This document shows positions 13,927 through 26,835 of a DNA stretch of 64,000 nucleotides, in pieces (position 1 is the first letter of the stretch; every line of letters begins with the position of its first letter). The stretch is from positions 62,001-126,000 of the forward strand of contig NZ_JAAGLU010000022.1 of the NCBI RefSeq assembly GCF_010550245.1, given 5' to 3'. The position numbers were made by a program, and so were the translations under genes. This DNA is from Streptomyces sp. SID12501 (GTDB lineage: Bacteria > Actinomycetota > Actinomycetes > Streptomycetales > Streptomycetaceae). The notes below the pieces were generated by a model. The model saw only the letters and a list, made by a program, of their open reading frames with translations, was not told where the DNA came from and ran no database searches.

Positions 13927-15021
13927 CTACAAGTACAGGCCCGCGTCCGCTCCCTCTCTCTGGTCCGGGACCGTTGTCGGGCTTGTGCCTCTGCGTAGGG
14001 CGTACAGCTCGGCCAGGGTCGCGCCCTCGCGGCCCACCCCCTCCTCCGCGCCCAGCCACGTGGTTGCCTCCCGGCGCGTCAGGGGGCCCACCTCGATGCG
14101 GGCCAGGCAGCGGCCGGGGCGGACGACGGCCGGGTGGAGGCGTTCGAGGTCCTCGTTGGTGGTGACGCCCACCAGGACGTTGCGGCCCTGGCCGAGGAGG
14201 CCGTCCGTCAGGTTCAGCAGACGGGAGAGGGCCTGGCCCGCCGTGTGCTTCGCCTCGCCCCTGATCAGTTCGTCGCAGTCCTCCAGGAGGAGCAGACGCC
14301 AGCGGCCCTTCCCCGTGCCGTCCTCCTCGCCGATCGCGATGTCCATCAGATAGCCGACGTCGGAGAAGAGGCGCTCGGGGTCCAGCACGCAGTCCACCTG
14401 GCACCAGTCCCGCCAGGAGCGGGCCAGCGTGCGCAGCGCGGACGTCTTGCCGGTGCCCGGCGGGCCGTGGAGCAGCAGCAGACGGCCCGCGATGTCCTCC
14501 GGTGTCGTCTTCATCAGGCCGTCCATCGCGTCCGCGACCGGGGCGGTGTAGTTGGCGCGCACCTCGTCCCAGGTGCCCGCCGAGATCTGGCGGGTCGTGC
14601 GGTGCGGGCCCCGGCGCGGGGACACGTACCAGAAGCCCATCGTCACGTTCTCCGGCTGGGGTTCGGGCTCGTCCGCGGCGCCGTCCGTCGCCTGGTCGAG
14701 GACCTTCGCGGCCAGCTCGGGGGTGGTCGCCGTCACCGTCACGTCGGCACCCCGGTTCCAGCGGGACACCAGGAGGGTCCAGCCGTCGCCCTCCGCCAGG
14801 GTGGCGCTGCGGTCGTCGTCGCGGGCGCTGCGCAGGACGCGGGCGCCCGGCGGGAGGAGCGTCGCACCGGACCGTACGCGGTCGATGTTCGCCGCGTGGG
14901 AGTACGGCTGCTCACCCGTCGCGAAGCGGCCGAGGAACAGCGCGTCGACGACGTCGGACGGGGAGTCGCTGTCGTCGACGTTGAGCCGGATCGGCAGCGC
15001 GTCGTACGGGTTCGCAGACAT
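13927..15021 (-). CDS. DUF5925-type AAA ATPase
   Basis: 364 residues from ATG 15021 (SANPYDALPIRLNVDD); the frame is open further upstream but without conserved residues. The N-terminal 170 residues form a domain of unknown function seen with this ATPase (VTMGFWYVSPRRGPHRTTRQI). The AAA module follows: Walker A GPPGTGKTSALRTLA, Walker B LLLLEDCDEL, sensor 1 VLVGVTTNEDLERL and the arginine region RPGRCLARIEVG. It would act as a ring ATPase remodelling an unidentified partner. It is divergent from the glycoside hydrolase gene, with 175 bp between starts. Confidence 0.8.
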   Translation of the reverse strand: MSANPYDALPIRLNVDDSDSPSDVVDALFLGRFATGEQPYSHAANIDRVRSGATLLPPGARVLRSARDDDRSATLAEGDGWTLLVSRWNRGADVTVTATTPELAAKVLDQATDGAADEPEPQPENVTMGFWYVSPRRGPHRTTRQISAGTWDEVRANYTAPVADAMDGLMKTTPEDIAGRLLLLHGPPGTGKTSALRTLARSWRDWCQVDCVLDPERLFSDVGYLMDIAIGEEDGTGKGRWRLLLLEDCDELIRGEAKHTAGQALSRLLNLTDGLLGQGRNVLVGVTTNEDLERLHPAVVRPGRCLARIEVGPLTRREATTWLGAEEGVGREGATLAELYALRRGTSPTTVPDQREGADAGLYL

Positions 15022-15196
15022 GCCGCCATGATCCGGCACCCGGCCGCCGAGTGCACCCGGTTTCCGTAGTGCGCGCCGAGTGTCGCCCAATGCGGTGTCT
15101 TCGTCCCGCACGTCCGATACATCCATGTTCTGTTACCCGGCTGTGCGCTGCGGAGGTCTGCCCTCCGCCCGTACCCCGCCGTTACTGTTGCCCTTG

Positions 15197-16624
15197 ATGG
15201 GACGTCATGGGTGGAATTCGGGGGCTCGGTGGTGGCAGCTCACCGCCCTGCTCGGGGTGGGGGCCGCCGCACTGGCCCTGGTCCTCACCCTGCTCAACAC
15301 GCTGCCGTCGAATGGCGGCAGCACCGCCGGCACCTCCCGCGACGGCGACAAGGTGCACGGCACACCGTCCGTGTCCTCGCCCGGGTCGTCGGAGCCGGAC
15401 GTCGGATGGGGCTTCACCCACACCCAGTTCAGCGCCGACGAGGGCAACGCGTCGGCCGTCGGCCGGGTCGAGGGGCTGCTGTCGAAGGATGCCGGGCTGC
15501 CGCAGAACCAGCACATCATGGGCTGGGGCGCCGGCAACCCCGAGCCGGTCAAGGGGCGTTACGACTTCACTGAGATGGACCGCCGCATCGACTTCATGCG
15601 CGCCTCCGGCGCCACCCCGGTGGTCACCCTGTGCTGCGCCCCGGACTGGATGAAGGGCGGCAGGTCCGGCTCCGACAAGACCGACTGGAGCCAGTCCGCC
15701 CTGGAGACCGCCCCGGAGCGCGCGCACTACAAGGACTTCGCCGCGCTCGCCGCGACCGTCGCCAAGCGCTATCCCGACGTACGCCACTTCATCGTGTGGA
15801 ACGAGTTCAAGGGCTTCTGGAACAACACCGAGGCGCGCTGGGACTACGAGGGGTACACCGAGCTGTACAACCTGGTCCACAAGGCGCTGAAGGAGGTCGA
15901 CAAGGACATCATGGTGGGCGGGCCGTATCTCGTCATGGACAGCCTCGACCCACGTCAGAAGCCGGACGCCTCCACGACCGTCAAGGGGCCCTGGGGCGCC
16001 ATGGACCAGCGGATCCTTGACGCCTTCGACTACTGGAACGCTCACAAGGCGGGCGCCGACTTCGTCGTCGTGGACGGCTCCAGCTACACCAAGGACGACG
16101 AGCTGCTGCCCGACGAGTTCGCGGCGACCGACAAGTTCACCGCCGTCGGGAAGTGGGTGCGAGCACGGACGCGAGGGCTGCCGCTGTGGTGGGCCGAGTA
16201 CTACGTCGAGCCCGCCGACGGCAACGACGACCGCGCGGGCTGGTCCGAGACCCGCCGCGAGGCCGTCCAGGCCGCCGGCCTGATCGCGATGGCCAAGGGC
16301 GGTGCCTCCTCCGGCTTCTACTGGAACCCCGAGGAGGAGAAGGGCGCCGGTTGCGCCGGCTGTCTGTGGACTCCCACCTCAAGCGGCAGCGGGGGAGCGG
16401 CACTTCCCATGTACGACCTTGTCTCCCGCTTCGGCGCCGCGTTCCCGCCGGGCACGGACTACCGGACCGTCCCGGTGGCCCCGGACGACCGGCCCAACGT
16501 GCGTGTGCTCGCCGACGACAAGGCCGTCCTCGTCGTCAACACCCTGGACCGGCCGATCGACGCGCAGGTCGACGGGAAGCGGTTCGCGATGGGCGCGTAC
16601 GAGGTGAAGTGGCTCAGCCGCTGA
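15197..16624 (+). CDS. Membrane-anchored glycoside hydrolase, GH39/GH5-like (clan A)
   Basis: 475 residues. An N-terminal transmembrane anchor (LTALLGVGAAALALVLTLL) and a Ser/Gly linker precede a TIM-barrel: GWGFTHTQFSADEG, TPVVTLCCAPDWMKGG, then FIVWNEFKGFW (candidate acid/base Glu) and LPLWWAEYYVEP (candidate nucleophile Glu). A small C-terminal beta domain (VLVVNTLDRPIDAQV) ends the protein. This arrangement resembles beta-xylosidase/GH39-type enzymes. It is convergent with the large polysaccharide-flippase gene, 55 bp away, and probably trims or processes the surface glycan made by that locus. ATG 15197 is chosen over upstream starts because it directly precedes the membrane anchor. Confidence 0.8.
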   Translation: MGRHGWNSGARWWQLTALLGVGAAALALVLTLLNTLPSNGGSTAGTSRDGDKVHGTPSVSSPGSSEPDVGWGFTHTQFSADEGNASAVGRVEGLLSKDAGLPQNQHIMGWGAGNPEPVKGRYDFTEMDRRIDFMRASGATPVVTLCCAPDWMKGGRSGSDKTDWSQSALETAPERAHYKDFAALAATVAKRYPDVRHFIVWNEFKGFWNNTEARWDYEGYTELYNLVHKALKEVDKDIMVGGPYLVMDSLDPRQKPDASTTVKGPWGAMDQRILDAFDYWNAHKAGADFVVVDGSSYTKDDELLPDEFAATDKFTAVGKWVRARTRGLPLWWAEYYVEPADGNDDRAGWSETRREAVQAAGLIAMAKGGASSGFYWNPEEEKGAGCAGCLWTPTSSGSGGAALPMYDLVSRFGAAFPPGTDYRTVPVAPDDRPNVRVLADDKAVLVVNTLDRPIDAQVDGKRFAMGAYEVKWLSR

Positions 16625-16679
16625 GCCGGTCACCGGCCCAGCCACCCCACCCCGCCTCAGGCATCACGCCCCACCGCCG

Positions 16680-19600
16680 TCACCTCATCGTCAGGAACCG
16701 CTGCACCAGCGAGGCCAGCAGCACCGCCAGCAGCGGCAGTGAGAACCAGAAGCTGCTCTGCAGCCACCGGAGTTGCCGGACTCCCGGGCGCACCGCGACC
16801 CGTACGGCCTCCCGGGCCGTGAGCAGCAGGATCAGGGCGACGGCCGCCAGGCCGCCCACCACCGACCACGGTATCCACGTCACCTGGGGACCGATCGGGC
16901 CGGGATCGGCCTTCGGGACCCCGCCCTCCGGTTGCTGCCGCAGCGCGTACATCGTGACGTCGGAGTTGACGAACACCTTCCTCAACTCGTCCCGGCCGTC
17001 CAGGTTCTGGAGCAGCCGGTGCTCCCAGGCGGCCGAGTAGCCCACGTCCAGCCGGAGGTACACGACCTGGCTGCGGTTGACCATCAGGTACGAGTTGGGG
17101 CCCGCGTCCTTGAGCGCCTTCACCAGCCCCGACACCAGTACCGGGTCGGCCGGTGCGAGCGTCGGCTCGTACCGCACCTTCTCCATGTCCCGGGCGCCCC
17201 ACGGCAGGGCCGGCGTCACGTTGTCGACGAGGTCGTTGCTCAGCCACAGCAGCCGTACGGTCGGATCGTCGTGGGCGTACACGTAGTTCATCGCGGCGAC
17301 CTCGCCGGGGCGGGTCCGTTCGAAGGGCTCGTTGCCCCAACGGGCCACCAGGAAGCCGCCCATGAGGACCAGGCCCGCCATCAGGGCGGCCAGTGGGGCG
17401 ATGCTGATCCGGTCCCGCTCCTGTTCCTTCGGGGTCACCCCGGTGCGCGGGAAGAGCGCGAGCGCGGCGAGCAGGGCCGCGCCGGGCAGGGCGAACATGA
17501 AGACGCGCAGGGCCATCTCGCCGCCGTACGACTGCATACCGAAGCCCAGGAACGGGACGAAGGTGAGGACAAGCAGGGAGCGTTCGCGGTACTTGTGGTC
17601 GCGGCGGCGCCACCAGCCGTAGCAGGCGAGGGTCATGACCCCGCCGGCCAGCAGGACGCGCGTGTAGAGGACGAGCTTGTGGCTCGAACTGCCGCCCTCG
17701 ATACGGCCGGAGACGCTCGACGACACATTGCCGCCCACTCCGCCCAGCCCGCCGAAGAGTTCGTCGAAGTGCCCCGACCAGTACGGCTCGGCCATGAAAC
17801 CGACCCAGGCCGCGACGATGACGCCGAACAGGATGGGCAGGCCCCGCAGTTCGGACCTGCCGATCAGGACCAGGACCGCCAGCACGCCCAGCATCACGAA
17901 CGGCGTCAGCTGGTGGGCCGGGACCGTCGCCGCGAACAGGGCGATCAACACGGCCAGCAGCACGGCCTGTTGGCGGCGATTCGTCGGCTCGACCTCCGCC
18001 TCGCCCGGCCGTACCTTCGCCCACAGCACCCGCGGCGCCCGGAACCACACCAGCAGGATCGCCACGAAGACCAGATAGAGAAGGTAGGTGAAGCCCTGCG
18101 GGGAGAAGTAGTCCTGGCCCACCCAGCCGCTCAGGACGAAGATCCACACGCCGGTCCACTTGGCGCGCCAGCTCGCCCGCAGTGAGCGCGTCAGCAGGAA
18201 CAGCGGTCCCAGGTAGAGCAGTTGCATGGTCAGCGGCCACCAGCGGATGACCTCGGTGAGATCACTGACCCCGCAGGCCTTCGCCACGAACGCGGCCCCC
18301 GCGAAGAAGCCCGGCCAGCTCCAGCGCGCGTCCAGGTCCGGTACGGCGGTCCCGGTCCGGTCGACGTAGTCGATGAACCCGAGGTGCTGCCAGGCCGTCG
18401 CGAACCGCGGTTCGGCCTCGATCACCGCGGGCAGCGCGTGCAGCGACACGACGGTCGCGAGCAGCGTGAGCGCCAGCAGCGTGCGGTGTTCGCGGTTGCC
18501 CCACAGCAGTGACGAGAACACCACGACCAGCAGCGCGGCCCCGATCAGCGTCGGCAGCGGCAGTACGGAGACCAGCCCGAGCCCACCCATCCGGTCCAGG
18601 TCGGCCTCGCCGAGGCGGGACGCGGGCACCCAGTAGAGCAGGAGCGCGGCGATCAGCAGCCCGCCGAGGACCAGTCCGCCCCGGGTGGGCAGCAGACGTG
18701 CGCGCAGGGAGAGCGGAGGCGGTGTCGGCGCGGCGGACGGGGTGTGCGGGGTACGCAACTCCCTTACGAGGGAGGCCTGTACGGCGTGTACGAGTTCGGC
18801 GTCCGCGCCCGCCGGGACGGCGGCCTTCCGCGGGGCGCCCTCCAGCGGCAGTCCCATGGCCTCAGGCCCCACCTGTTTCAGGGCCCAGGTCGGCCGGCGG
18901 TCCGCACGCGGCGCCGGTGTCCCCGTGGGCGGAGTCCCCGGCCCGGGGCGGACGTCCGGGCGGCGTTCCAGGTGGTCGAAGTCGAGGTGGACACCGAGCG
19001 CGAGCGTGTCCGGGTCCAGCGCCCAACCCTGTCCGCGCCTGCGGGAGTCGGCCGCCAGGACATCGCGCGTCCCCAGGTCGGCGAGGTCCCCGTCCGGTGC
19101 CGGGCCCTCGGGGACGGCGTCGGCCGGCGCCGCCATGACCGTCCGGTACAGCCTGGGCGCGGCGAGCGTGACGATCACCGCGAGGGACGAGATCTCCGCG
19201 ACGCCCGCGCCGGTCAGCCCCATCCGGGGGAGCAGCAGCAGCGTCAGACCGAGCACCAGGACGCACAACAGGCCCTGCATCCAGGCAAGTGGGCCGGTAC
19301 GGCTCTGGGCGCGCAGCACCGCGAAGTACGTCTCCATGACGACCCGCAGCACCGCGCCGACCGCGAACCAGCGCAGCAGCGGGGTCGCCGCGTCCGCGTA
19401 GCCCGAGCCGAAGACGCTCAGGATCCAGGGTGCGCCGAAGAACAGCACAGCGGCGACCGGCAGCATGATCCGCGCCATGCGTCTGAGGGCGGCCCGGGTG
19501 TTGGTGGCCAGCCGGGCCGGATCGTGCGAGCCCTCGACGGTCAGCGAGGCGCCCATGTTGATGGCGAGCAGGTTGACCGTGCCGCCGATGGTGGTGGTGA

Positions 19601-20486
19601 TGTAGAAGTACGCGTTGTCGGTGGAACTGACCTGCGAGGCGACGATCACCGGCACCAGGTAGACCACCGCGAGGGAGAACAGCGACCCGGTGTAGTCGCC
19701 GGCCAGGAACCGGCCGATCTCCCTCGGCGTCGGCGGTTTCGTGTGCTCCTCGGTCGCCTTGACGTGCCGGGGCACCAGCCGGCGGAACACCAGCCAGCCC
19801 AGCGGCAGTACCGACATGGCGATCGCCGCGACCCACGACACGAAGACACCGCTCGTCGGGATCGCCGCCGCGAAGGCGACCAGCAGCCCCAGCTTGACCG
19901 CCGAGAACGCCGTGTTGCCGACCGGCACCCACAGCGCGCTGCGCAGCCCGGTCAGCACCCCGTCCTGGAGGGTGAGCAGGTTCCACAGGACGACGGCGCC
20001 GACGAACCCCAGGGCGGGCACCGGCCCGTGCAGGAACCGGTACGACGGCCCCCAGCTGTCCAGCGTGAGCAGGAAGACACCGCCGGCCAGCGCGACGATC
20101 ACCGAACTGCCCGCGTACGTACGGAAGATGAGCCGTCCGGTGGCGCGGCCCGCGACCGGGATGAAGCGGGCCAGGGCGCCCGTCAGCGTCACCGCCGTGA
20201 GACCGGCGAGGAGCTTCATGGCGGCGATCGCGGCGGAGCTCTGGCCGACCGCCGACTCGGTGTAGTAGCGGGCGGCGGCCAGCCAGAAGCCGAGCCCGAG
20301 CACGGCGGAGATGCCGGTGTTGAGCATCAGCGCGTAGGCGTTGCGGAACAGCTGGCTGCCGCCCCCCTGGCCCCTGCCCAGGCCGGGCAGCCGCAGCCGC
20401 AGCCGCCGCCCAGGACGCTGCTCGGGTGTCTGGGCCTCGGGAGTGTCGACGGCCTCGGTCGCGGGTGTGGTCGTCGTGTCAGACAC
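16680..20486 (-). CDS. Fused polysaccharide flippase (MVF/Wzx-like) and GT-C-like membrane protein
   Basis: 1268 residues in one uninterrupted frame. Roughly residues 40-450 are a 12-14 helix flippase of the oligosaccharidyl-lipid exporter type (LFRNAYALMLNTGISAVLGLGFWLAA split across the first helix; GDYTGSLFSLAVVYLVPVIV; FGSGYADAATPLLRWFAVGA). A hydrophilic, Pro-rich linker (about 460-610) follows. Residues about 610-1268 are a second polytopic protein with about 10 helices, a large external loop and GWVGQDYFSPQGFTYLLYLV, the pattern of actinobacterial GT-C-like transferases/polymerases. GTG 20486 overlaps the upstream deacetylase stop by 8 bp. I infer it both flips and assembles lipid-linked glycan. 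The fusion is the unusual point. Confidence 0.8.
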   Translation of the reverse strand: MSDTTTTPATEAVDTPEAQTPEQRPGRRLRLRLPGLGRGQGGGSQLFRNAYALMLNTGISAVLGLGFWLAAARYYTESAVGQSSAAIAAMKLLAGLTAVTLTGALARFIPVAGRATGRLIFRTYAGSSVIVALAGGVFLLTLDSWGPSYRFLHGPVPALGFVGAVVLWNLLTLQDGVLTGLRSALWVPVGNTAFSAVKLGLLVAFAAAIPTSGVFVSWVAAIAMSVLPLGWLVFRRLVPRHVKATEEHTKPPTPREIGRFLAGDYTGSLFSLAVVYLVPVIVASQVSSTDNAYFYITTTIGGTVNLLAINMGASLTVEGSHDPARLATNTRAALRRMARIMLPVAAVLFFGAPWILSVFGSGYADAATPLLRWFAVGAVLRVVMETYFAVLRAQSRTGPLAWMQGLLCVLVLGLTLLLLPRMGLTGAGVAEISSLAVIVTLAAPRLYRTVMAAPADAVPEGPAPDGDLADLGTRDVLAADSRRRGQGWALDPDTLALGVHLDFDHLERRPDVRPGPGTPPTGTPAPRADRRPTWALKQVGPEAMGLPLEGAPRKAAVPAGADAELVHAVQASLVRELRTPHTPSAAPTPPPLSLRARLLPTRGGLVLGGLLIAALLLYWVPASRLGEADLDRMGGLGLVSVLPLPTLIGAALLVVVFSSLLWGNREHRTLLALTLLATVVSLHALPAVIEAEPRFATAWQHLGFIDYVDRTGTAVPDLDARWSWPGFFAGAAFVAKACGVSDLTEVIRWWPLTMQLLYLGPLFLLTRSLRASWRAKWTGVWIFVLSGWVGQDYFSPQGFTYLLYLVFVAILLVWFRAPRVLWAKVRPGEAEVEPTNRRQQAVLLAVLIALFAATVPAHQLTPFVMLGVLAVLVLIGRSELRGLPILFGVIVAAWVGFMAEPYWSGHFDELFGGLGGVGGNVSSSVSGRIEGGSSSHKLVLYTRVLLAGGVMTLACYGWWRRRDHKYRERSLLVLTFVPFLGFGMQSYGGEMALRVFMFALPGAALLAALALFPRTGVTPKEQERDRISIAPLAALMAGLVLMGGFLVARWGNEPFERTRPGEVAAMNYVYAHDDPTVRLLWLSNDLVDNVTPALPWGARDMEKVRYEPTLAPADPVLVSGLVKALKDAGPNSYLMVNRSQVVYLRLDVGYSAAWEHRLLQNLDGRDELRKVFVNSDVTMYALRQQPEGGVPKADPGPIGPQVTWIPWSVVGGLAAVALILLLTAREAVRVAVRPGVRQLRWLQSSFWFSLPLLAVLLASLVQRFLTMR

Positions 20487-21288
20487 GGGAACGGATGGCC
20501 TTCCGGCGGACCTGACGTGCTCTGCGGGCCAGGGCGTACCCCTTGGTGAGGGCGCGGTCCCCGGCGAAGTTCCGGGCGATCGCACGGCCTTCGATCAGCC
20601 GCTCGAACTCCTGGATACTGGTGCTGTGGCGCACGGTGACGCGTTTCAGGGCGTACGGACCCTGCGCCCGGCGTGCCAGACCGTTGCCGACGGCGAGCGC
20701 CTGCGCGAACCCCGCCTCGCGGACAGCGGTGCGCACCCGGCGGCTGGAGTAGCCGTAGGGATAGGCGAACGACACGGGCACGGTGCCCAGTTCGTCCGCG
20801 ACGATCTCCTTGCACCGCGTCAGCTCGAAGCGCAGCGCCTCGTCGTCGAGCTGGTCCAGCTCCGGATGTGTGTGGCTGTGGCCGCCGATCTCGACGCCCG
20901 CGCCCGCGAGTTCGCGCACCTGGTCCCAGTCGAGCATCCGGTCGAGCGCGCCACCGGTGCGGTACGCGCCTCGGAGCCAGCCCGTCGAGACGAACAGTGA
21001 GGCGGAGAAGCCGTGTTCGGCCAGCACCGGCAGCGCGTGCCGGTGCACCCCCTCGTATCCGTCGTCGAAGGTGATCAGGACCGGCTGCGGGGGCAGCCCT
21101 CGCTCCATCGAGAACGGGCGGCGCCAGGAGGCGGCCAGTTGGGCCGTGGTGACCGGATGGAAGTCCCAGTCCGCGAGAAGCGCCATCTGCTCGGCGAACG
21201 CCTCGGGCGTCACGGAGAGGGTACGAGTGCGGGGATTGGGCGTCCGGGTGACCGAGTGGTACATCAGGACAGGCACGGGCGCACTCAT
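20479..21288 (-). CDS. Polysaccharide deacetylase (NodB/CE4 family)
   Basis: 269 residues. PVLMYHSV opens the domain; ITFDDGYEGVHRHALPVL holds the catalytic Asp and first metal Asp; EIGGHSHTHPELDQL supplies the metal-binding histidines; FAYPYGYSSRRVRTAV is motif 3. All CE4 metal ligands are therefore present. There is no signal peptide, so it may act on cytoplasmic or lipid-linked intermediates, or be exported another way. The basic C-terminus (RRARQVRRKAIRSRV) could contact membrane. It overlaps both neighbours (4 and 8 bp) inside the polysaccharide operon. Confidence 0.9.
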   Translation of the reverse strand: MSAPVPVLMYHSVTRTPNPRTRTLSVTPEAFAEQMALLADWDFHPVTTAQLAASWRRPFSMERGLPPQPVLITFDDGYEGVHRHALPVLAEHGFSASLFVSTGWLRGAYRTGGALDRMLDWDQVRELAGAGVEIGGHSHTHPELDQLDDEALRFELTRCKEIVADELGTVPVSFAYPYGYSSRRVRTAVREAGFAQALAVGNGLARRAQGPYALKRVTVRHSTSIQEFERLIEGRAIARNFAGDRALTKGYALARRARQVRRKAIRSRV

Positions 21289-22283
21289 GCTGTACCCCCT
21301 TCGACGCTCCGCTCGATCTCCACCACCGTGAACGTGGCCCCGCCCCGGCGCGCCCGGAGGCTCCCCAGGGCGTACCCGCCCGCCGCCGTCAGCACCCCGG
21401 CGACGATCGCGCCCGCCCGGCCCGCACCGCCCGGCCTGGCCAGCAGGGCATCGCGCAGACCGCGCGCGACCCCGGCGGGCAGCACCCGGGTGGTGTACCG
21501 GCGTTCCGACTCAAGTCCCTTGTCCGCGCCCACACTTCGGGCGACCAGAGCCTTCGACAGACCCTCGGCGTAGGTGCGGGTGCGGAAGTAGCCGAAGTGT
21601 TCGCGGACCTCGGGCACCCGGTGGTGGATCACCGCACGGTCGTCGATCAGCAGCACCGCGTCGGGTCTGGCCCGGGCGAGCCGGATGCACAGCTCCGTCT
21701 CCTCGCAGCCCAACGGCCGCTTGTCACCGTCCCGTCCGATACCGGTGGCGAAACCGCCGGCCGCGTCGAAGGCCGTACGCCGGAAGGAGGCGTTCCCGCC
21801 GAGCACGTTGCGGACCCTGACGCGTCCCCCGGGCAGCCCCTTGTACGTGCAGCCCACCACCCAGTCGAACTCCTCGGGGAACCAGGCCGGCCGGCGGCCC
21901 GACGCCCAGATCGGCATCGTCCGGCCGCCGACGGCCATCACCCGGGGGTCCGCGTACCCCTCGGCGAAGTGGCGCAGCCAGTCGCGTTCGGCCACGGCGT
22001 CGTCGTCGAGGAAGGCGATGATCCCGCCGTGCGAGGCGGCGATCCCGGTGTTGCGGCCGGCCGACAGGCCGCGCGGGCCCGCGTTGGCGAGCACCCGTAC
22101 CTCGTCGGTCTCCTTGTACTCCTTGGCCAGCCGCTCCAGGAGTGCCTGGTTGTGGTCGACGACCAGGAGTGTCTCCAGGGCCGGCCGCGACTGCGCCCGC
22201 ACCGAGGCGACCGCCGCGAGGATGTCCTCCCAGCGGTCCTCGGTGTAGACGCAGACGACCACCGAGACGTCCGGCTCGTTCAA
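21285..22283 (-). CDS. Family 2 glycosyltransferase
   Basis: 332 residues. The GT-A fold shows VSVVVCVYTEDRWEDI, the nucleotide-binding NTGIAASHGGIIAFLDDDAV (DxD-type motif DDD), then GGNASFRRTAF and the base-containing GCEETELCIRL. The C-terminal 80 residues contain one or two hydrophobic stretches (GAIVAGVLTAAGGYALGSL) that may attach it to the membrane. The acceptor is unknown, but its position between a polyprenyl-phosphate-type GT2 and a deacetylase implies assembly of a lipid-linked surface glycan. Four-base overlaps on both sides show tight coupling. Confidence 0.9.
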   Translation of the reverse strand: MNEPDVSVVVCVYTEDRWEDILAAVASVRAQSRPALETLLVVDHNQALLERLAKEYKETDEVRVLANAGPRGLSAGRNTGIAASHGGIIAFLDDDAVAERDWLRHFAEGYADPRVMAVGGRTMPIWASGRRPAWFPEEFDWVVGCTYKGLPGGRVRVRNVLGGNASFRRTAFDAAGGFATGIGRDGDKRPLGCEETELCIRLARARPDAVLLIDDRAVIHHRVPEVREHFGYFRTRTYAEGLSKALVARSVGADKGLESERRYTTRVLPAGVARGLRDALLARPGGAGRAGAIVAGVLTAAGGYALGSLRARRGGATFTVVEIERSVEGGTA

Positions 22284-23119
22284 GACACCTCTCCCCGGCT
22301 CGTGCTGAGGATGCGGGAGTGCGAACGGCTGCGCAGGTCACGCCGGTTGGAGCGCTCTCTCAGGATCACCCGCAGAACGCGCAGCCCGTCGCGCACGGCC
22401 CGCAGATTGCTCGCGCCGTGGATACGGAGGTACTCGTGGCTCGGGATCTCCTGCACCTTGAGCCCCGCCTTGACCACCCGGATGTTGATCAGGGTCTCGA
22501 TCTCGAAGCCGGTGCAGTCGAGGTCGATCTTGTCGAGGCAGTGCCGCCAGAACGCGTTGTAGCCGTAGCAGAGATCGGTGTAGCGGGCGCCGAACTTCTT
22601 GTTGACGATCGTGCACAGCGCCCAGTTGCCGAGCTTGCGGATCGGCGTCATGTCGTCGGTGCCGCCGCCGTTGGCGAAGCGCGAGCCCTTGGCGAAGTCG
22701 GCGCCCGAGACGAGCGCGGAGACGTACGACACGATCTCGTGGCCGTCCGCCGACCCGTCGGCGTCGACCATCACGATGATGTCGCCGGTGCAGGCCTCGA
22801 ACCCGGTGATCAGGGCATCCCCCTTGCCCTTGCCCTGCTGCTCGACGACCTTGACGTCGGGCCACAGCCCGCGGGCGACCTCGACGGTGTCGTCGGTGGA
22901 GTTGCCGTCGACCAGGACCACTTCGTGGATCCAGTCGGGCAGTGTCTTGAAGACGTACGGCAGGTTCTCCGCCTCGTTCATGGCGGGTATCACCACGCTC
23001 ACCGGTGGCGTGATCGCCAGGTGGGAGGAGATCGGCCGGTACACGTCGGCCGTGATCGGTTGCTGGTCGGCGATCGCGGGCTGCTGGCCCGGTATCGCCG
23101 GTCGCAGAACGGAACTCAT
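22280..23119 (-). CDS. GT2 glycosyltransferase, dolichyl/polyprenyl-phosphate sugar synthase type
   Basis: 279 residues. After a Gln/Pro-rich N-terminus the catalytic domain reads VSVVIPAMNEAENLPYV, VLVDGNSTDDTVEVA, IIVMVDADGSADGHEI and GSRFANGGGTDDMT, the pattern of polyprenyl-phosphate mannose/glucose synthases. There is no C-terminal membrane domain. It should make a polyprenyl-phosphate-linked sugar, the donor used by GT-C enzymes such as the second half of the large fusion protein. ATG 23119 is chosen because it starts the conserved part; the frame extends upstream with no ribosome-binding site. It is the first gene of the tight 4-gene operon. Confidence 0.85.
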   Translation of the reverse strand: MSSVLRPAIPGQQPAIADQQPITADVYRPISSHLAITPPVSVVIPAMNEAENLPYVFKTLPDWIHEVVLVDGNSTDDTVEVARGLWPDVKVVEQQGKGKGDALITGFEACTGDIIVMVDADGSADGHEIVSYVSALVSGADFAKGSRFANGGGTDDMTPIRKLGNWALCTIVNKKFGARYTDLCYGYNAFWRHCLDKIDLDCTGFEIETLINIRVVKAGLKVQEIPSHEYLRIHGASNLRAVRDGLRVLRVILRERSNRRDLRSRSHSRILSTSRGEVS

Positions 23120-23515
23120 GAGTCTGGACCCTCTCGTCCGGTAGACCGCCCGCCCCCGGGCAGCCCGGTTTTTTGTCCGGTTCGAAAGGGGGGTTCTCAC
23201 TTACGGCATGCCGAATTGACTCTCCGTATCGGTCTCTGGCCGTTCTCGTTCATGCCGGGTGAGCTGGCAAAGCTGGCCGAACACCGTGACCCGGTGGTCG
23301 GTTTCGCGGCACGGCCCGGCGGGATGTACGTCCACCGAGCACGGCACCCCCCTACCGCGCCCCGCTCCGACGGTCGTCGTGGACCCTGAGCCCTCCCCTG
23401 AGTCACAGGACGACGTACCGATGCGGGTGAGATGTATGACGGTATTGACGATTACGCCCTTATGGCAATACCTGAAACGAGGTCTCACGTTTTTGTTGGT
23501 TTGACCGTTACGCAA
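23120..23515. other. Intergenic region: probable promoter of the polysaccharide operon
   Basis: 396 bp with no supportable gene. It is less GC-rich than its surroundings. It contains the 10-bp palindrome CGGCATGCCG (23204-23213) and a 7-bp inverted repeat GGTATTG (23441-23447) / CAATACC (23466-23472) with an 18-bp spacer. Either could be an operator controlling the GT2-deacetylase-flippase operon transcribed leftward. Confidence 0.5.
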
Positions 23516-24655
23516 CTACTTTGATCGATTTCTGGAACGGAGTTGCCCCATCCGCTTCAGTGCCCTGTCCGCCGGCTCGAAGAGCTCCGGCCGTGACAGC
23601 ACCACATTGCGCAGCGCCCGCACCGGGGCGCGCCGCGCCCGGTGTCCGGCCGCCACCGGGTGACGACGTGTCACCCACCCCTCGGACACCAGGAGTTCAC
23701 GTGTCTTCAGGGAGTCCTTGTACTCCTTCTGGCCTCGGCCCAGATCCAGGTACGCGATACCGTCGGCGGCCGCCGCCTCGGCCATCCGCAGATGCAGGAT
23801 CAGCCCGGGAGAGTACTTCGAGTACGCCGGATCGTACGCCGGGAACCAGCAGGCCAGTACGCGTTCGGTGCGCAGTCCGAAGTGGGCGGCGATCGGCTTT
23901 CCGTCGGCGTAGAGCACCGACAGGATGCCCGCGAACGGGTCGGAACGGGTGTGGAAGAGCTGCTGTACGAGCCGGGTGATCCAGGGGTGCGCGAACCGGT
24001 CGCTGCGGCCGGTCCTGCGGTACTGGGCGGACTTCCAGGCCATCAGCCTGGTCAGCGCCTCGGGATCGCGCTCGTCGTGCACGTAGCGGACCTCGCCGAC
24101 GTCCCGGCCGAGTCTGCGCTCCTTGGCGAGCGTCGTACGCGTGAACTTCGGTGACCGCGCCCGGAGCCCGGCCAGGTAGGTCTCGTACCCCTGGTCGACG
24201 TCCATCACCGGGGACGGGAAGGTGCCGGAGGCCCCTGCCTCGAACGGCGCCTGGCCCCCCACCAGATGGTCGAACTCCCACACCGAGAGCCCGCAGGCTC
24301 GCAGCAACTCCCTTGCGTCCCAGTCGAATCCGGGGCGGTGCACCAGCCCCTGGCAGTCGGAGACACCGAGCCCGATCGCCCGGCCGACGCCGGCGGCGGA
24401 TCTCTGGAACGGGAAGAACGCGGCCGGTTCCCCGCCCTCGTGGAGCACCGCGATGCGTACGCCGCGTCTGCAGCGGCCGATCGCGAGCGTGAACTCCGGG
24501 GACAGGAAGGGGTTCGCCAGTTCGGGCGAGCCGTGCAGATGGGCCTTGGCCTGCAACGCCGTCCAGGCGGCCCGGTCGGCGGCGGTCAGTTCGCCGGGCC
24601 GGTGCACGGTGAGGGTCACGTCGGGAGTCAGATTACGAGCCATGTCACGAGCCAC
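23516..24655 (-). CDS. FemAB/BcsL-like GNAT acyltransferase (CelD type)
   Basis: 379 residues with the double-GNAT fold of the CelD/BcsL family (GNAT_6). Visible blocks are NPFLSPEFTLAIG, VAVLHEGG-like IAVLHEGGEPAAFFPFQR, then FTRTTLAKERRLGRDVG, MAWKSAQYRRTGRSDRF and the CoA-site region HFGLRTERVLACWFPAYDPAYSKYSPGLILHLRM with YLDLGRGQKEYKDSL. Family members act in cellulose and exopolysaccharide loci, probably acylating the glycan or its lipid carrier. Two in-frame ATGs lie close together (24655, 24643); the first is given. It sits one base after the preceding membrane-protein gene. Confidence 0.85.
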   Translation of the reverse strand: MARDMARNLTPDVTLTVHRPGELTAADRAAWTALQAKAHLHGSPELANPFLSPEFTLAIGRCRRGVRIAVLHEGGEPAAFFPFQRSAAGVGRAIGLGVSDCQGLVHRPGFDWDARELLRACGLSVWEFDHLVGGQAPFEAGASGTFPSPVMDVDQGYETYLAGLRARSPKFTRTTLAKERRLGRDVGEVRYVHDERDPEALTRLMAWKSAQYRRTGRSDRFAHPWITRLVQQLFHTRSDPFAGILSVLYADGKPIAAHFGLRTERVLACWFPAYDPAYSKYSPGLILHLRMAEAAAADGIAYLDLGRGQKEYKDSLKTRELLVSEGWVTRRHPVAAGHRARRAPVRALRNVVLSRPELFEPADRALKRMGQLRSRNRSK

Positions 24656-24656
24656 G

Positions 24657-25094
24657 TCAGGGGGTCCGTCTTCTCGCCGTACGGCCGCGCTGTCGCCGTA
24701 CCAGAACCAGCAGGAGGATCAGCGCGCTGATCACGGTCACGGCCACGACTCCACCGCGGACAGACCACCGGTGCGTCGCCAGCATGCCCTGGGCGACCAG
24801 GAGATCGAGTGCGACCGCCGCCGCCACGGATGTGACGATCCGGCCGAGCGGCTCCAGTCCGCGCAGCGCGGCCCCCACGGCGGCCGCCGGCGCGGCGAGG
24901 AGGAAGAACAGCGTGAGGGGGCCGCGCAGCGGGGAGGCGGTGTCGGTCAGCGCGAGGGCCGCACCGATGGCCGCGACGGCCACGGCCACGCCCGTGAGCA
25001 GCGGTAACAGGTCCTTCCCCGGCCCCTGTTCCGACGGCTCACCGTCGTCCGGTCGACTCCCGGATGAAGGTGGCTTGATACGTATGGTCTGCAT
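24657..25094 (-). CDS. Small four-helix membrane protein of the polysaccharide locus
   Basis: 145 residues. A polar N-terminus (QTIRIKPPSSGSRPDDGEP) is followed by about four hydrophobic helices (LLPLLTGVAVAVAAIGAALA; GPLTLFFLLAAPAAAVGAAL; RIVTSVAAAVALDLLVA; GGVVAVTVISALILLLVLV) and a basic tail RRQRGRTARR. I do not recognise a named family. Because its stop is one base from the acyltransferase start, it is co-transcribed with it and may be the membrane partner of that soluble enzyme. ATG 25094 is chosen because the residues upstream are not protein-like. Confidence 0.7.
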   Translation of the reverse strand: MQTIRIKPPSSGSRPDDGEPSEQGPGKDLLPLLTGVAVAVAAIGAALALTDTASPLRGPLTLFFLLAAPAAAVGAALRGLEPLGRIVTSVAAAVALDLLVAQGMLATHRWSVRGGVVAVTVISALILLLVLVRRQRGRTARRRTP

Positions 25095-25239
25095 TGGCGA
25101 CTTTGCCCCCCGACGCGCCGGATGCCGGGCTTCAATGTCGCGCAGCGGGCCGGACGAGTCAAGATGCGCAGCCCTTGCGACATCTATCCCGAATGCATAC
25201 ACGACGTTCCCCGGAGGGAACGAAGGGGTGGACGGACGG

Positions 25240-25312: not shown

Positions 25313-26524
25313 TTACGAGACGAGCTTCAGCAGGCGGTTCGGGGAGCCGGTGCCCGGGCTGGTGACCACCCCGGTGGTGGCGCCGCCCGTGAGGGCGGTG
25401 GCGACCTGGGCCGGCGTGGCCGAGGTGTGGCCCGCGAGGTAGACGGCCGCCGCACCCGCGACGTGCGGGGTGGCCATCGACGTACCGGAGATCGTGTTCG
25501 TCGCGGTGTCGCTGGTGTTCCAGCCCGCCGTGATCGAGGAACCCGGGGCGAAGATGTCCAGGACCGAGCCGTAGTTGGAGTAGCTGGCGCGAGCGTCCGT
25601 GCTGGTGGTGGCGCCGACCGTGATGGCCGTCGCGACCCGCGCGGGGGAGTAGGAGGAGGCGTTGGCGCTGCTGTTGCCGGCCGCGACCGCGTAGGTCACG
25701 CCGCTGGCTATGGAGTTGGCGACGGCCGTGTCCAGTGAGGTCGAGGCACTGCCGCCGAGCGACATGTTGGCGACCGAGGGGCTGGTGTGGTTCGCGGTCA
25801 CCCAGTCGATGCCCGCGATGACGCCGGCCGTGGTGCCCGAGCCGGCGTTGTCGAGCACGCGCACCGCCACGATCTTCGCCGCCTTGGCGACACCGTAGGT
25901 CGAGCCCGCGATGGTGGTGGCGACGTGCGTGCCGTGGCCGTTGCCGTCCTGTGCGACGGAGTCGCCGTCAACGGCGTCGTAGCCGTTGGTGGCCCGGCCA
26001 CTGATCTGGGAGTGCGTGATGCGTACGCCCGTGTCGATGACGTACGCGGTCACCCCGGCGCCGGCCGTGTCCGGGTAGGTGTAGGTGCCGGACAGCGGCA
26101 GGGCGGCCTGGTCGATGCGGTCGAGGCCCCAGGGGGCGCTGGACTGCGTGGCGTCGACGTGCACCGTCTGGTTCTGCTCGACGGTGGCCACCGCGGGGTC
26201 GGCGGCGAGTCTGCGGGCCTCGGCCGCGGAGAGGGTCGCCGTGTAGCCGTTCAGCGCGGTGCTGAACGTCTTCTTCACCGTGCCGCCGTACCCCTTGATC
26301 AGACTCTTGCCCGCGCTCGACGCGGACTTGAGGCCCGCCGCCTTCTTGAGCGTGACGATGTAGCTGTCCTTGACGGCTGTGGGGGAGCCGGCGGCCAGCA
26401 CCTTGCCCTCGGCGGGTGCCGGGGCTGCCTGGGCGGGGAGCGCGGTGAATCCGCCGACGAGAGCGGCGGCTGCCACGACGGTGGTCGCGGCGGTCCTGAT
26501 CTTCTTGCTGCGCAGTTGTGCCAT
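25313..26524 (-). CDS. Secreted subtilisin-like serine protease (S8, proteinase K subfamily)
   Basis: 403 residues. Signal peptide to about residue 33 (TVVAAAALVGGFTALPAQAA), inhibitor I9 propeptide about 50-125 (DSYIVTLKK ... AAEARRLAADPAVATVEQNQ), then the catalytic domain: Asp164 in VIDTGV, His197 in NGHGTHVA, oxyanion Asn284 in AAGNSS and Ser349 in GTSMATPHVAG. The triad is intact and the protein ends soon after the catalytic domain, without a P-domain, as in proteinase K-like Streptomyces enzymes. ATG 26524 starts the signal peptide and follows GAGGAGGA 10-17 bases upstream. It acts extracellularly in protein breakdown. Confidence 0.93.
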   Translation of the reverse strand: MAQLRSKKIRTAATTVVAAAALVGGFTALPAQAAPAPAEGKVLAAGSPTAVKDSYIVTLKKAAGLKSASSAGKSLIKGYGGTVKKTFSTALNGYTATLSAAEARRLAADPAVATVEQNQTVHVDATQSSAPWGLDRIDQAALPLSGTYTYPDTAGAGVTAYVIDTGVRITHSQISGRATNGYDAVDGDSVAQDGNGHGTHVATTIAGSTYGVAKAAKIVAVRVLDNAGSGTTAGVIAGIDWVTANHTSPSVANMSLGGSASTSLDTAVANSIASGVTYAVAAGNSSANASSYSPARVATAITVGATTSTDARASYSNYGSVLDIFAPGSSITAGWNTSDTATNTISGTSMATPHVAGAAAVYLAGHTSATPAQVATALTGGATTGVVTSPGTGSPNRLLKLVS

Positions 26525-26835
26525 AACGAGGGAGTCCTCCTCTGAGGCAGCACACGCCTGGGTGGGGGCGTGTCTGTGGGGGGATGCCCGCTGGCGCGGA
26601 CACAACCCGGAGCGTCGCGTTCCGCCCGGGCTGAGGTAAAGACTCGGTCATGAACGGGAGTTGCTCAAGGGGTTGGACGGCTTGTCACGCCCATGTCACG
26701 AATACGCAATCAAACGTAACGTGAATGCGGATGATCCGCTCCGATAGGAGCGGAAAAGTCTTGGCATGGACACTTCCGTTCAACAGGTGTGGTTGGTACG
26801 AACGTTGTGGCAGAGATCCTGCTAAGGGAGGTTCC
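26525..26835. other. Divergent promoter region between the subtilase and the SGNH esterase
   Basis: 311 bp without a gene. Two small hairpins are visible: ACACGCC (26552-26558) with GGCGTGT (26567-26573) in the subtilase leader, and CCGCTCC-GATA-GGAGCGG (26736-26753) 82 bp upstream of the esterase ATG. The middle (about 26690-26760) is AT-richer and likely carries both promoters. Confidence 0.5.

Follow-up and report, generated by a model that had tools for sequence, protein, structure and literature searches.

What kind of glycan pathway would use a protein in which a flippase and a membrane glycosyltransferase share a single reading frame? The question is raised by a locus of Streptomyces sp. 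SID12501 that lies in positions 62,001 to 126,000 of contig NZ_JAAGLU010000022.1; this stretch of 64,000 nucleotides is the window, and all positions given are window positions. The locus encodes a GH39-like glycosidase, a fusion of a flippase with a GT-C-like membrane protein, a CE4 N-deacetylase, two GT2 enzymes called GTb and GTa, an acyltransferase of GNAT/BcsL type and a small membrane protein. We propose, with moderate confidence, that these genes encode an Agl/Arn-like pathway that builds a glycan on a lipid monophosphate, the flippase and the transferase being united in one protein.

The fused flippase and GT-C protein

Scanning contigs at one genome per species, we obtained 163 fusion relatives, from which the best 80 were kept; 79 of these are titled Streptomyces, S. 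lincolnensis (L022) and S. canus (L053) among them, the exception being 'Actinobacteria bacterium OK074'. The flippase and GT-C halves are common to one stop-free frame in 80/80 related loci, so that the 1268-residue fusion described in an earlier note on this DNA stands as one uninterrupted frame. The other genes, whose order that note had proposed to search for in other genomes, are kept as well: CE4 was found in 79/80 loci and GH39 in 79/80 (both together in 78/80), GTb in 77/80, GTa in 76/80, and the small membrane protein in 75/80. Loci L029, L033, L056, L068 and L077 start within the locus, and L005 ends within it. The gene cluster is conserved in Streptomyces and is not a product of chance.

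The N-terminal half is a flippase of the MOP superfamily by family membership, which supports the flippase call of the earlier note; its transport activity would follow from that family. At E up to 1, PF01943 was matched by 13 of 25 members of the flippase family, the best match having 3.2e-8, and there were also matches to MurJ (two members), PelG (two) and MatE (one). The window's own flippase sequence taken alone gave no PF01943 match at E 1, and the flippase profile matched MurJ 5t77 at E 0.0023. The flippase alignment (A3) omits L118 and L136 by choice, L126 for a stop, and L120, which has no flippase on the stretch. The linker between the halves is predicted to be cytoplasmic from the flippase topology.

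The C-terminal half presents about a dozen transmembrane (TM) helices (nine plus two C-terminal by hydropathy) and an alpha/beta domain predicted to lie outside. Eleven columns are invariant among 26 GT-C relatives (W133, W197, Q200, Y202, Q206, H267, P271, A363, Y396, E399 and R403, in the numbering of the half), so that H267, E399 and R403 are kept in 26/26. The corresponding alignment (A2) omits L118, L120 and L055 by choice and L130 for a stop in the stretch; alignment A4 omits L005, which runs to the contig end. The profile of the 26 relatives gave no sequence match in the PDB at E 1, and the Pfam and NCBIfam scans of these relatives gave scattered matches, each confined to one or two members; the best had E 0.049 in Pfam and 0.022 in NCBIfam, and all were taken as chance. 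The family is not named by the sequence libraries used here. A profile scan of viral contigs returned 19 pattern matches and no relatives.

The assignment of this half comes from its model. AlphaFold was run on GT-C residues 10-594 with 80 rows (the window and 79 relatives), which gave a pLDDT of 67.4 and a pTM of 0.69 and replaced an earlier model from 22 rows with a pLDDT of 46.6. The nine best Foldseek matches of the model were all GT-C proteins, including ArnT, the oligosaccharyltransferase (OST) subunit STT3, AftA, AftD and PglB, at E from 1e-3 to 4e-2. Re-aligned with VIA, the model matched a GT-C protein in each of rows 1-36, with Z from 16.4 to 8.9: OST/STT3 16.4, AglB 15.1, PglB 14.4, DPY19 13.7, Pmt4 13.0, ALG12 12.9, Emb 12.6, ArnT 11.3 and AftB 11.2 (row 20 is titled translocon, and its chain was taken to be STT3). 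Rows 37-38 correspond to the C-terminal domain of archaeal AglB (Z 6.5 and 5.3), and the other listed rows reach at most 4.5. Because 36 rows agree on one superfamily and a gap lies below them, the modelled half is assigned to the GT-C fold, nearest in fold to oligosaccharyltransferases, which bears out the earlier GT-C call. Most GT-C rows begin near model residue 62-74, which suggests that the first two TM helices of the half are probably extra. Membership in STT3 itself (GT66) was considered and excluded: among the Pfam matches of the 26 members at E up to 1 there was no STT3 family, and WWDxG, the motif of STT3 oligosaccharyltransferases, occurs in 0/26.

Outside the close relatives the halves mostly come apart and stay in one stretch of DNA. 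Of 25 distant loci, chosen for holding a GT-C match, 18 have GTa, 23 have GTb or a paralogue, and 24 have a flippase. The flippase and the GT-C protein are separate genes in 21 of the 25, within one 20-28 kb stretch; two loci (L121 and L124) hold a plausible fusion, and L120 was not judgeable. Locus L135 was rejected as a fusion, its common open frame being misleading with a GTb gene lying inside it. Since the separate halves lie within one stretch, mostly with the same two GT2 types, a functional link between flippase and GT-C is likely. The earlier note would have given up its proposal if the halves were separate genes in all relatives with no functional link; they are instead fused in all of the close loci, and where split they still lie in one stretch. 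Nonomuraea (L112) and L117-L119 keep the Streptomyces gene order with the halves split, the small four-TM protein being present there as well, and Deinococcus aetherius presents the order GT2-GT2-GT-GTC-small protein-flippase.

Five same-genus genomes (L137-L141) keep leader-GTa-GTb-CE4, and the fusion and GH39 are missing at that place. Elsewhere these genomes encode a flippase 57-58% identical, with a shortened C-terminal GT-C-like stub, and near it are a separate, full and divergent GT-C (within 6 kb), GNAT, CE4 and GT2. A flippase with such a stub near a full GT-C and GNAT was observed in L128, L129, L132, L150 and L151, all of the same genus, and in L127. By blastp the stubs gave E 0.001 (L127), 3e-4 (L151), 4e-5 (L128), 2e-8 (L129) and 5e-8 (L132), single-subject E-values which flatter; the L150 stub was not significant alone (E 0.39), so that four of the five same-genus stubs were significant, and the stub evidence is weak for both L150 and L127. 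These stubs look like repeated decay of the fused enzyme and its replacement by a second copy, the stub itself being probably inactive. If so, flippase and GT-C would take part in a single process, and the outer half would behave like an exchangeable unit. Among the 28 same-genus genomes of a draw from the class, a close GT-C half (66-100% identity) was found in ten, the relocated form in five, a distant GT-C (32-33%) in two, and none in eleven.

The two GT2 enzymes and the pathway they suggest

GTa matches Pfam Glycos_transf_2 at 3.3e-23, and its nearest PDB relatives are the dolichol-phosphate mannose (DPM) synthase 5mlz (3.9e-19) and, next, ArnC 9hwj (1.1e-7). By these matches it belongs to the DPM1/ArnC-type polyprenyl-phosphate GT2 enzymes. 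Its best NCBIfam match is AglJ (TIGR04182), at 142 bits against a cut-off of 325, and that of GTb is AglG (NF041394; glucosyl-dolichyl phosphate glucuronosyltransferase), at 227.9 bits against a cut-off of 440, both under the equivalog threshold. Eight more proteins from five loci (Deinococcus, Ensifer and three further genomes of the same class), drawn from 41 GTa and GTb stretches of distant loci, had the same best matches: the four GTa relatives scored 114-141 bits with AglJ, and the four GTb relatives 192-222 bits with AglG. Because AglJ is its best match and DPM synthase and ArnC are its nearest structures, GTa is probably the priming enzyme, acting on polyprenyl monophosphate. The earlier note saw neither a Wzy polymerase nor a priming transferase; the first part agrees with the eight proteins scanned here, among which no Wzy was recognised, and the absence of a priming enzyme is rejected, GTa being of the DPM/ArnC/AglJ type. 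Its suggestion that the polyprenyl-phosphate GT2 could supply the donor for the GT-C half receives support from the same family evidence.

The two enzymes also travel together. GTa and GTb are adjacent in the Streptomyces loci and in many distant ones. Of 296 genomes of the class, 52 gave a GT-C match at E 1e-3, and at E 1e-30 GTa was matched in 73 and GTb in 64; GTa occurs in 51 and GTb in 49 of the 52 GT-C genomes (Fisher 2e-38 and 1e-38, genome relatedness being ignored), and both occur in 63 of the 74 genomes having either. GTa stands without a GT-C match in 22 of the 296, and 15 of these 22 also hold GTb. Because these searches score no more than the 3 to 7 best first-look candidates of each genome, absences are soft.

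The accessory enzymes can be placed around this core. The deacetylase belongs to CE4 (Polysacc_deac_1, 4.6e-27) with the motifs TFDDG, HSHTH and YPYG, H-x3-H included, and is without TM segment or signal anchor by hydropathy. The GH39-like enzyme matches part of the Glyco_hydro_39 domain (PF01229) at 39.2 bits against a cut-off of 26 (5.2e-10), which places it in the family, and its best PDB matches are GH39 beta-xylosidases (1.6e-7). It has one N-terminal signal anchor (residues 15-33), with the catalytic domain predicted outside, and its WNE and WWAEY stretches presumably correspond to the clan-A acid/base and nucleophile motifs, which they resemble.

In the proposed pathway, GTa would load polyprenyl phosphate with its first sugar on the cytoplasmic side of the membrane, and GTb would add the next. 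The cytosolic CE4 enzyme would then act as ArnD does and deacetylate an N-acetylated sugar of this lipid-linked glycan, and GNAT, where present, may add another acyl group at the deacetylated sugar. The flippase half, whose fold family is established by its relatives, would turn the glycan outward, and the fused oligosaccharyltransferase-like half would hand it to an outside acceptor, which may be a polymer, a protein or the growing chain. The fusion would in this way pass the lipid-linked glycan directly between its halves. Transfer en bloc or polymerisation are both possible, as is the assembly of the glycan by the fusion itself, and the anchored GH39 enzyme would trim or release the product outside. 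This product, for the earlier note a surface polysaccharide, may be either a polymer or a glycan moved as a block to a different acceptor.

The locus could instead be an ordinary exopolysaccharide (EPS) locus of Wzx/Wzy-like kind, with the flippase as Wzx, the GT-C half as repeat-unit polymerase, and CE4, GNAT and GH39 modifying or trimming the product, a reading which we consider possible and well short of an even chance. A polymer fits the hydrolase, deacetylase and acyltransferase genes beside the fusion, and capsule or EPS loci of this type are alike in their Wzx-type flippase, GT2 enzymes, deacetylase and hydrolase. In the available text of PMC12691653, moreover, the sporangium matrix of Actinoplanes is proposed to have the flippase-domain protein ImpC as its Wzx and the Alg6_Alg8-type protein ImpE as its Wzy. 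Unlike in such loci, no Wzy, Wzz or pyrophosphate-linked priming enzyme was recognised in the Streptomyces locus, in a scan of eight proteins that did not extend to the rest of the genome; GTa is of the monophosphate type; and the nearest folds of the GT-C half are not polymerases of the Wzy kind, the single O-antigen ligase listed (7tpg) having E 0.97. Sugar-by-sugar decoration in the style of ArnT or Emb/Aft, in which the donor comes from GTa alone, single sugars are attached to a wall polymer by the GT-C half and GTb serves another step, appears unlikely. ArnC is among the PDB relatives of GTa, CE4 fits ArnD, and ArnT, AftA, AftB, AftD and Emb are among the fold matches of the GT-C half; yet the co-occurrence of GTa and GTb and their adjacency fit one lipid-linked product of at least two sugars, and MOP flippases as a rule carry oligosaccharides.

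Least probable by far is that the fusion is an accident of annotation or assembly, or that its GT-C half is not an enzyme. The lack of a significant Pfam, NCBIfam or PDB sequence match for this half, and the shrinkage to a stub of the part fused to the flippase in several relatives, would agree with it. An accident is refuted by the frame kept open in all 80 close loci, and a non-enzymatic half is at odds with the invariant H267, E399 and R403 and with the full separate GT-C near each stub copy.

Several observations weigh against the lipid-monophosphate pathway with a fused transferase that we prefer. An acidic residue is expected of GT-C enzymes at the start of the first external loop, and D or E stands at 99-101 in only 18 of the 26 GT-C relatives, among them the four Streptomyces fusion rows; this loop is also modelled poorly, with pLDDT below 50 at residues 96-123. 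The Foldseek E-values are weak, 1e-3 being the best, and mostly helical models can reach Z near 14 in VIA through common arrangement. GTa and GTb score far below the AglJ and AglG cut-offs, hence their sugars are not assignable from the family, and the proposed enzyme steps are drawn from family and fold. Finally, 15 of the 296 genomes hold GTa and GTb with no GT-C match, and the GT-C profile gave no match in those 15 and in 15 others lacking GTa (a search with no positive control). Some members of the family may leave the last step to another transferase, or their GT-C protein may be too distant to detect.

Of the known systems closest to the locus, the haloarchaeal Agl pathway of N-glycosylation uses AglJ, AglG, AglR and AglB. 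The Streptomyces locus is alike in having the same two GT2 types side by side, by best NCBIfam match, a MOP-type flippase, and a GT-C protein whose modelled fold and C-terminal domain resemble AglB. It is unlike the Agl system in being bacterial, in its GT-C half without STT3 family match or WWDxG, in the fusion, in the added CE4, GNAT and GH39 enzymes, and in GT2 scores far below the equivalog cut-offs. The Arn pathway consists of ArnC, ArnD, ArnEF and ArnT, ArnEF being a small flippase. It shares with the locus a DPM-type GT2 on polyprenyl phosphate, a CE4 enzyme, a flipping step and transfer by a GT-C enzyme, with ArnC and ArnT among the relatives and fold matches; in contrast, the locus has a MOP flippase in place of the small ArnEF, and an extra AglG-like GT2. 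The imp cluster of Actinoplanes, compared by its description in the available text of PMC12691653, is likewise actinobacterial and encodes, beside a glycoside hydrolase gene, both a flippase-domain protein and a membrane protein that is GT-C-like (Alg6_Alg8); it differs in three GT4 and one GT2 enzymes, and in ImpC and ImpE being separate.

The GTa/GTb/flippase/GT-C set was also observed on large replicons of rhizobia and Deinococcus, in L113 (Ensifer), L114 (Shinella) and L116 (Deinococcus). This set may have spread horizontally beyond the actinobacteria.

Layout of the locus

The seven genes reported in the earlier note are present (Table 1), and its 4-8 bp overlaps binding the core four genes were confirmed, with 8 bp between CE4 and the fusion, 4 bp between GTb and CE4, and 4 bp between GTa and GTb. 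The conserved ATG is more likely the true start of GTa than the upstream GTG. In the Pfam scan the locus matched GH39 (5e-10), Polysacc_deac_1 (5e-27), Glycos_transf_2 twice and Acetyltransf_6 (1e-46); at E 0.01 there was no match in the 1301-residue frame of the fusion and none in the small membrane protein.

Table 1. Features of the glycan locus and its leader in the window
Feature	Position	Strand	Basis
GH39-like glycosidase	15197-16624	+	translation, Pfam PF01229
Flippase/GT-C fusion, 1268 aa from GTG at 20486	16680-20486	-	translation, hydropathy
GT-C half	16683-18713	-	alignment of 26 sequences, hydropathy, model, fold searches
Linker, about 114 residues	18714-19055	-	hydropathy
MOP-superfamily (Wzx/MurJ-type) flippase half	19056-20393	-	PF01943 via family members
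CE4 N-deacetylase	20479-21288	-	Pfam, motifs, hydropathy
GTb, GT2	21285-22283	-	Pfam, NCBIfam
GTa, GT2 of DPM1 type	open reading frame (ORF) 22280-23200; start taken at conserved ATG 23119 over GTG 23200	-	Pfam, NCBIfam, PDB
Conserved structured leader of GTa operon, ~400 nt	23111-23510	-	alignment, folding, no Rfam match
Leader 3' hairpin: CCCUUUCG (23183-23190) pairs CGAGAGGG (23129-23136)	23129-23193	-	model R2
Leader 5' domain: three stacked helices and a hairpin, loop with invariant GGGGGG (23347-23352)	23338-23428	-	covariance model R1
GNAT/BcsL-type acyltransferase, optional	23516-24655	-	PF13480
Small protein, four predicted TM helices	ORF 24657-25202	-	hydropathy

Two members of the locus differ from their first description. 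The BcsL-like acyltransferase does carry PF13480, and it is not a fixed member, because it was found in 49 of the 75 loci holding both of its neighbours (two of the 49 being 17% fragments only). The small membrane protein is present as described, and its ORF runs beyond position 25094, where the range of the earlier note ended. Two neighbouring genes were considered as parts of the locus and left out. The DUF5925 AAA gene (13927-15126, minus strand) is found in 79/80 loci, yet is divergent from GH39 and has no match in the 25 distant loci; where the fusion and GH39 are missing (L137-L141), this ATPase gene still adjoins CE4. The subtilisin-like protease gene (25313-26605) is found in 41/80 loci.

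The leader RNA before GTa

GNAT is separated from the GTa ATG by 396 bp of mostly conserved non-coding DNA, so that the core four genes begin behind a leader RNA. By blastn the leader is present in 76/80 loci, and the remaining four (L029, L033, L068 and L077) begin downstream of it. In the alignment of 76 sequences (the window and 75 loci), mean pairwise identity per 50 bp is 0.70-0.91 with one dip to 0.54, against 0.45-0.58 in the upstream flank and 0.58-0.73 downstream within GTa. Further alignments were made from subsets: A5 comprises 51 of the 76 aligned leaders with L137, L138 and L141, and A6 and A7 comprise 51 and 43 leaders.

Two structured parts were recognized. In the 5' domain, 94.0% of cells are paired (at most 53.1% in slid controls), and both-sided changes affect 10 pairs and 39 cells, compared with 5.2 and 15.7 in shuffles (0/500) and 5-7 and 11-16 in slid controls. 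In the 3' hairpin, 99.3% of cells are paired (at most 63.0% in slid controls), and the both-sided changes (3 pairs, 5 cells) lie in the upper helix. The CGAGAGGG arm of this hairpin contains the GTa Shine-Dalgarno (SD) sequence GAGAGGG, nine bases before the ATG, and an invariant CCCCCC (23188-23193) overlaps the opposite, anti-SD arm. The mean pairing probability of the SD over 54 leaders is 0.88, the lowest being 0.33. All 54 sequences of A5 keep the G6 and C6 runs unchanged, and the two runs could pair with each other as a competing structure.

Some of these results count less than they may seem to. The SD helix hardly varies, and its pairing rests on conservation and not on covariation; when the upstream part was shuffled, SD pairing still averaged 0.59 over 100 controls. 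The pairing of G6 with C6 was computed as a duplex only (-18.9 kcal/mol). The tested structures were derived from the same related sequences by RNAalifold and inspection, and the controls lean favourably.

The leader appears confined to this operon. Rfam gave no match in the whole window at gathering score and two chance-level matches below it (E 2 and 3.6), the best sub-threshold match on the leader strand being Guanidine-III at 14.1 bits against 36. The covariance model of the 5' domain matched in 21 of 61 genomes, at one place each and all of the same genus, in a search with stricter filters whose absences are soft. GTa was matched in 31 of the 61, at 75-100% identity in the 21 with the leader and at 61% or less in the other ten; in 21/21 genomes leader and GTa match share a strand, the leader coming first by 88-332 bases. 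When the distant loci were searched, neither leader model matched below E 0.1, and matches were limited to the window and L137-L142. The leader resembles the riboswitch and leader families of Rfam in its long conserved 5' extent, its helices and its sequestered SD, and differs from them in being without an Rfam match. By hiding the ribosome-binding site, it probably puts GTa, the first gene of the operon, under translational control, and it may act as an on/off switch. It is a candidate new regulatory RNA and the most surprising part of the locus.

A wider reading, which we put forward tentatively, is that Streptomyces has, in this locus, a bacterial version of the archaeal kit for lipid-phosphate glycosylation, with the flippase and the oligosaccharyltransferase-like enzyme as one protein and the first step under a riboswitch-like RNA not described before. 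The G6 loop would pair with C6 beside the anti-SD arm and free the ribosome-binding site on a signal, which might be a sugar nucleotide or the state of the lipid carrier.

A literature search by title and abstract, with subscription papers mostly outside its reach, gave no paper on the locus, the fusion or the leader. The transporter survey of Streptomyces coelicolor lists three MOP proteins, and its available text mentions no flippase/GT-C fusion (PMC3924187). We rate the locus as a variant of lipid-linked glycan assembly not previously described. Comparable clusters matter for the sporangia of Actinoplanes, according to the available text of two reports (PMC12691653, PMC13390465). For Streptomyces, the locus gives a concrete and testable route to an uncharacterised glycan of many of its members, and the natural fusion of flippase and transferase lends itself to studying how lipid-linked glycans, once flipped, arrive at their transferase. 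In the genomes searched the leader stands before no other operon; it would be a new cis-acting regulator that couples glycosylation of the envelope to a signal of the cell.

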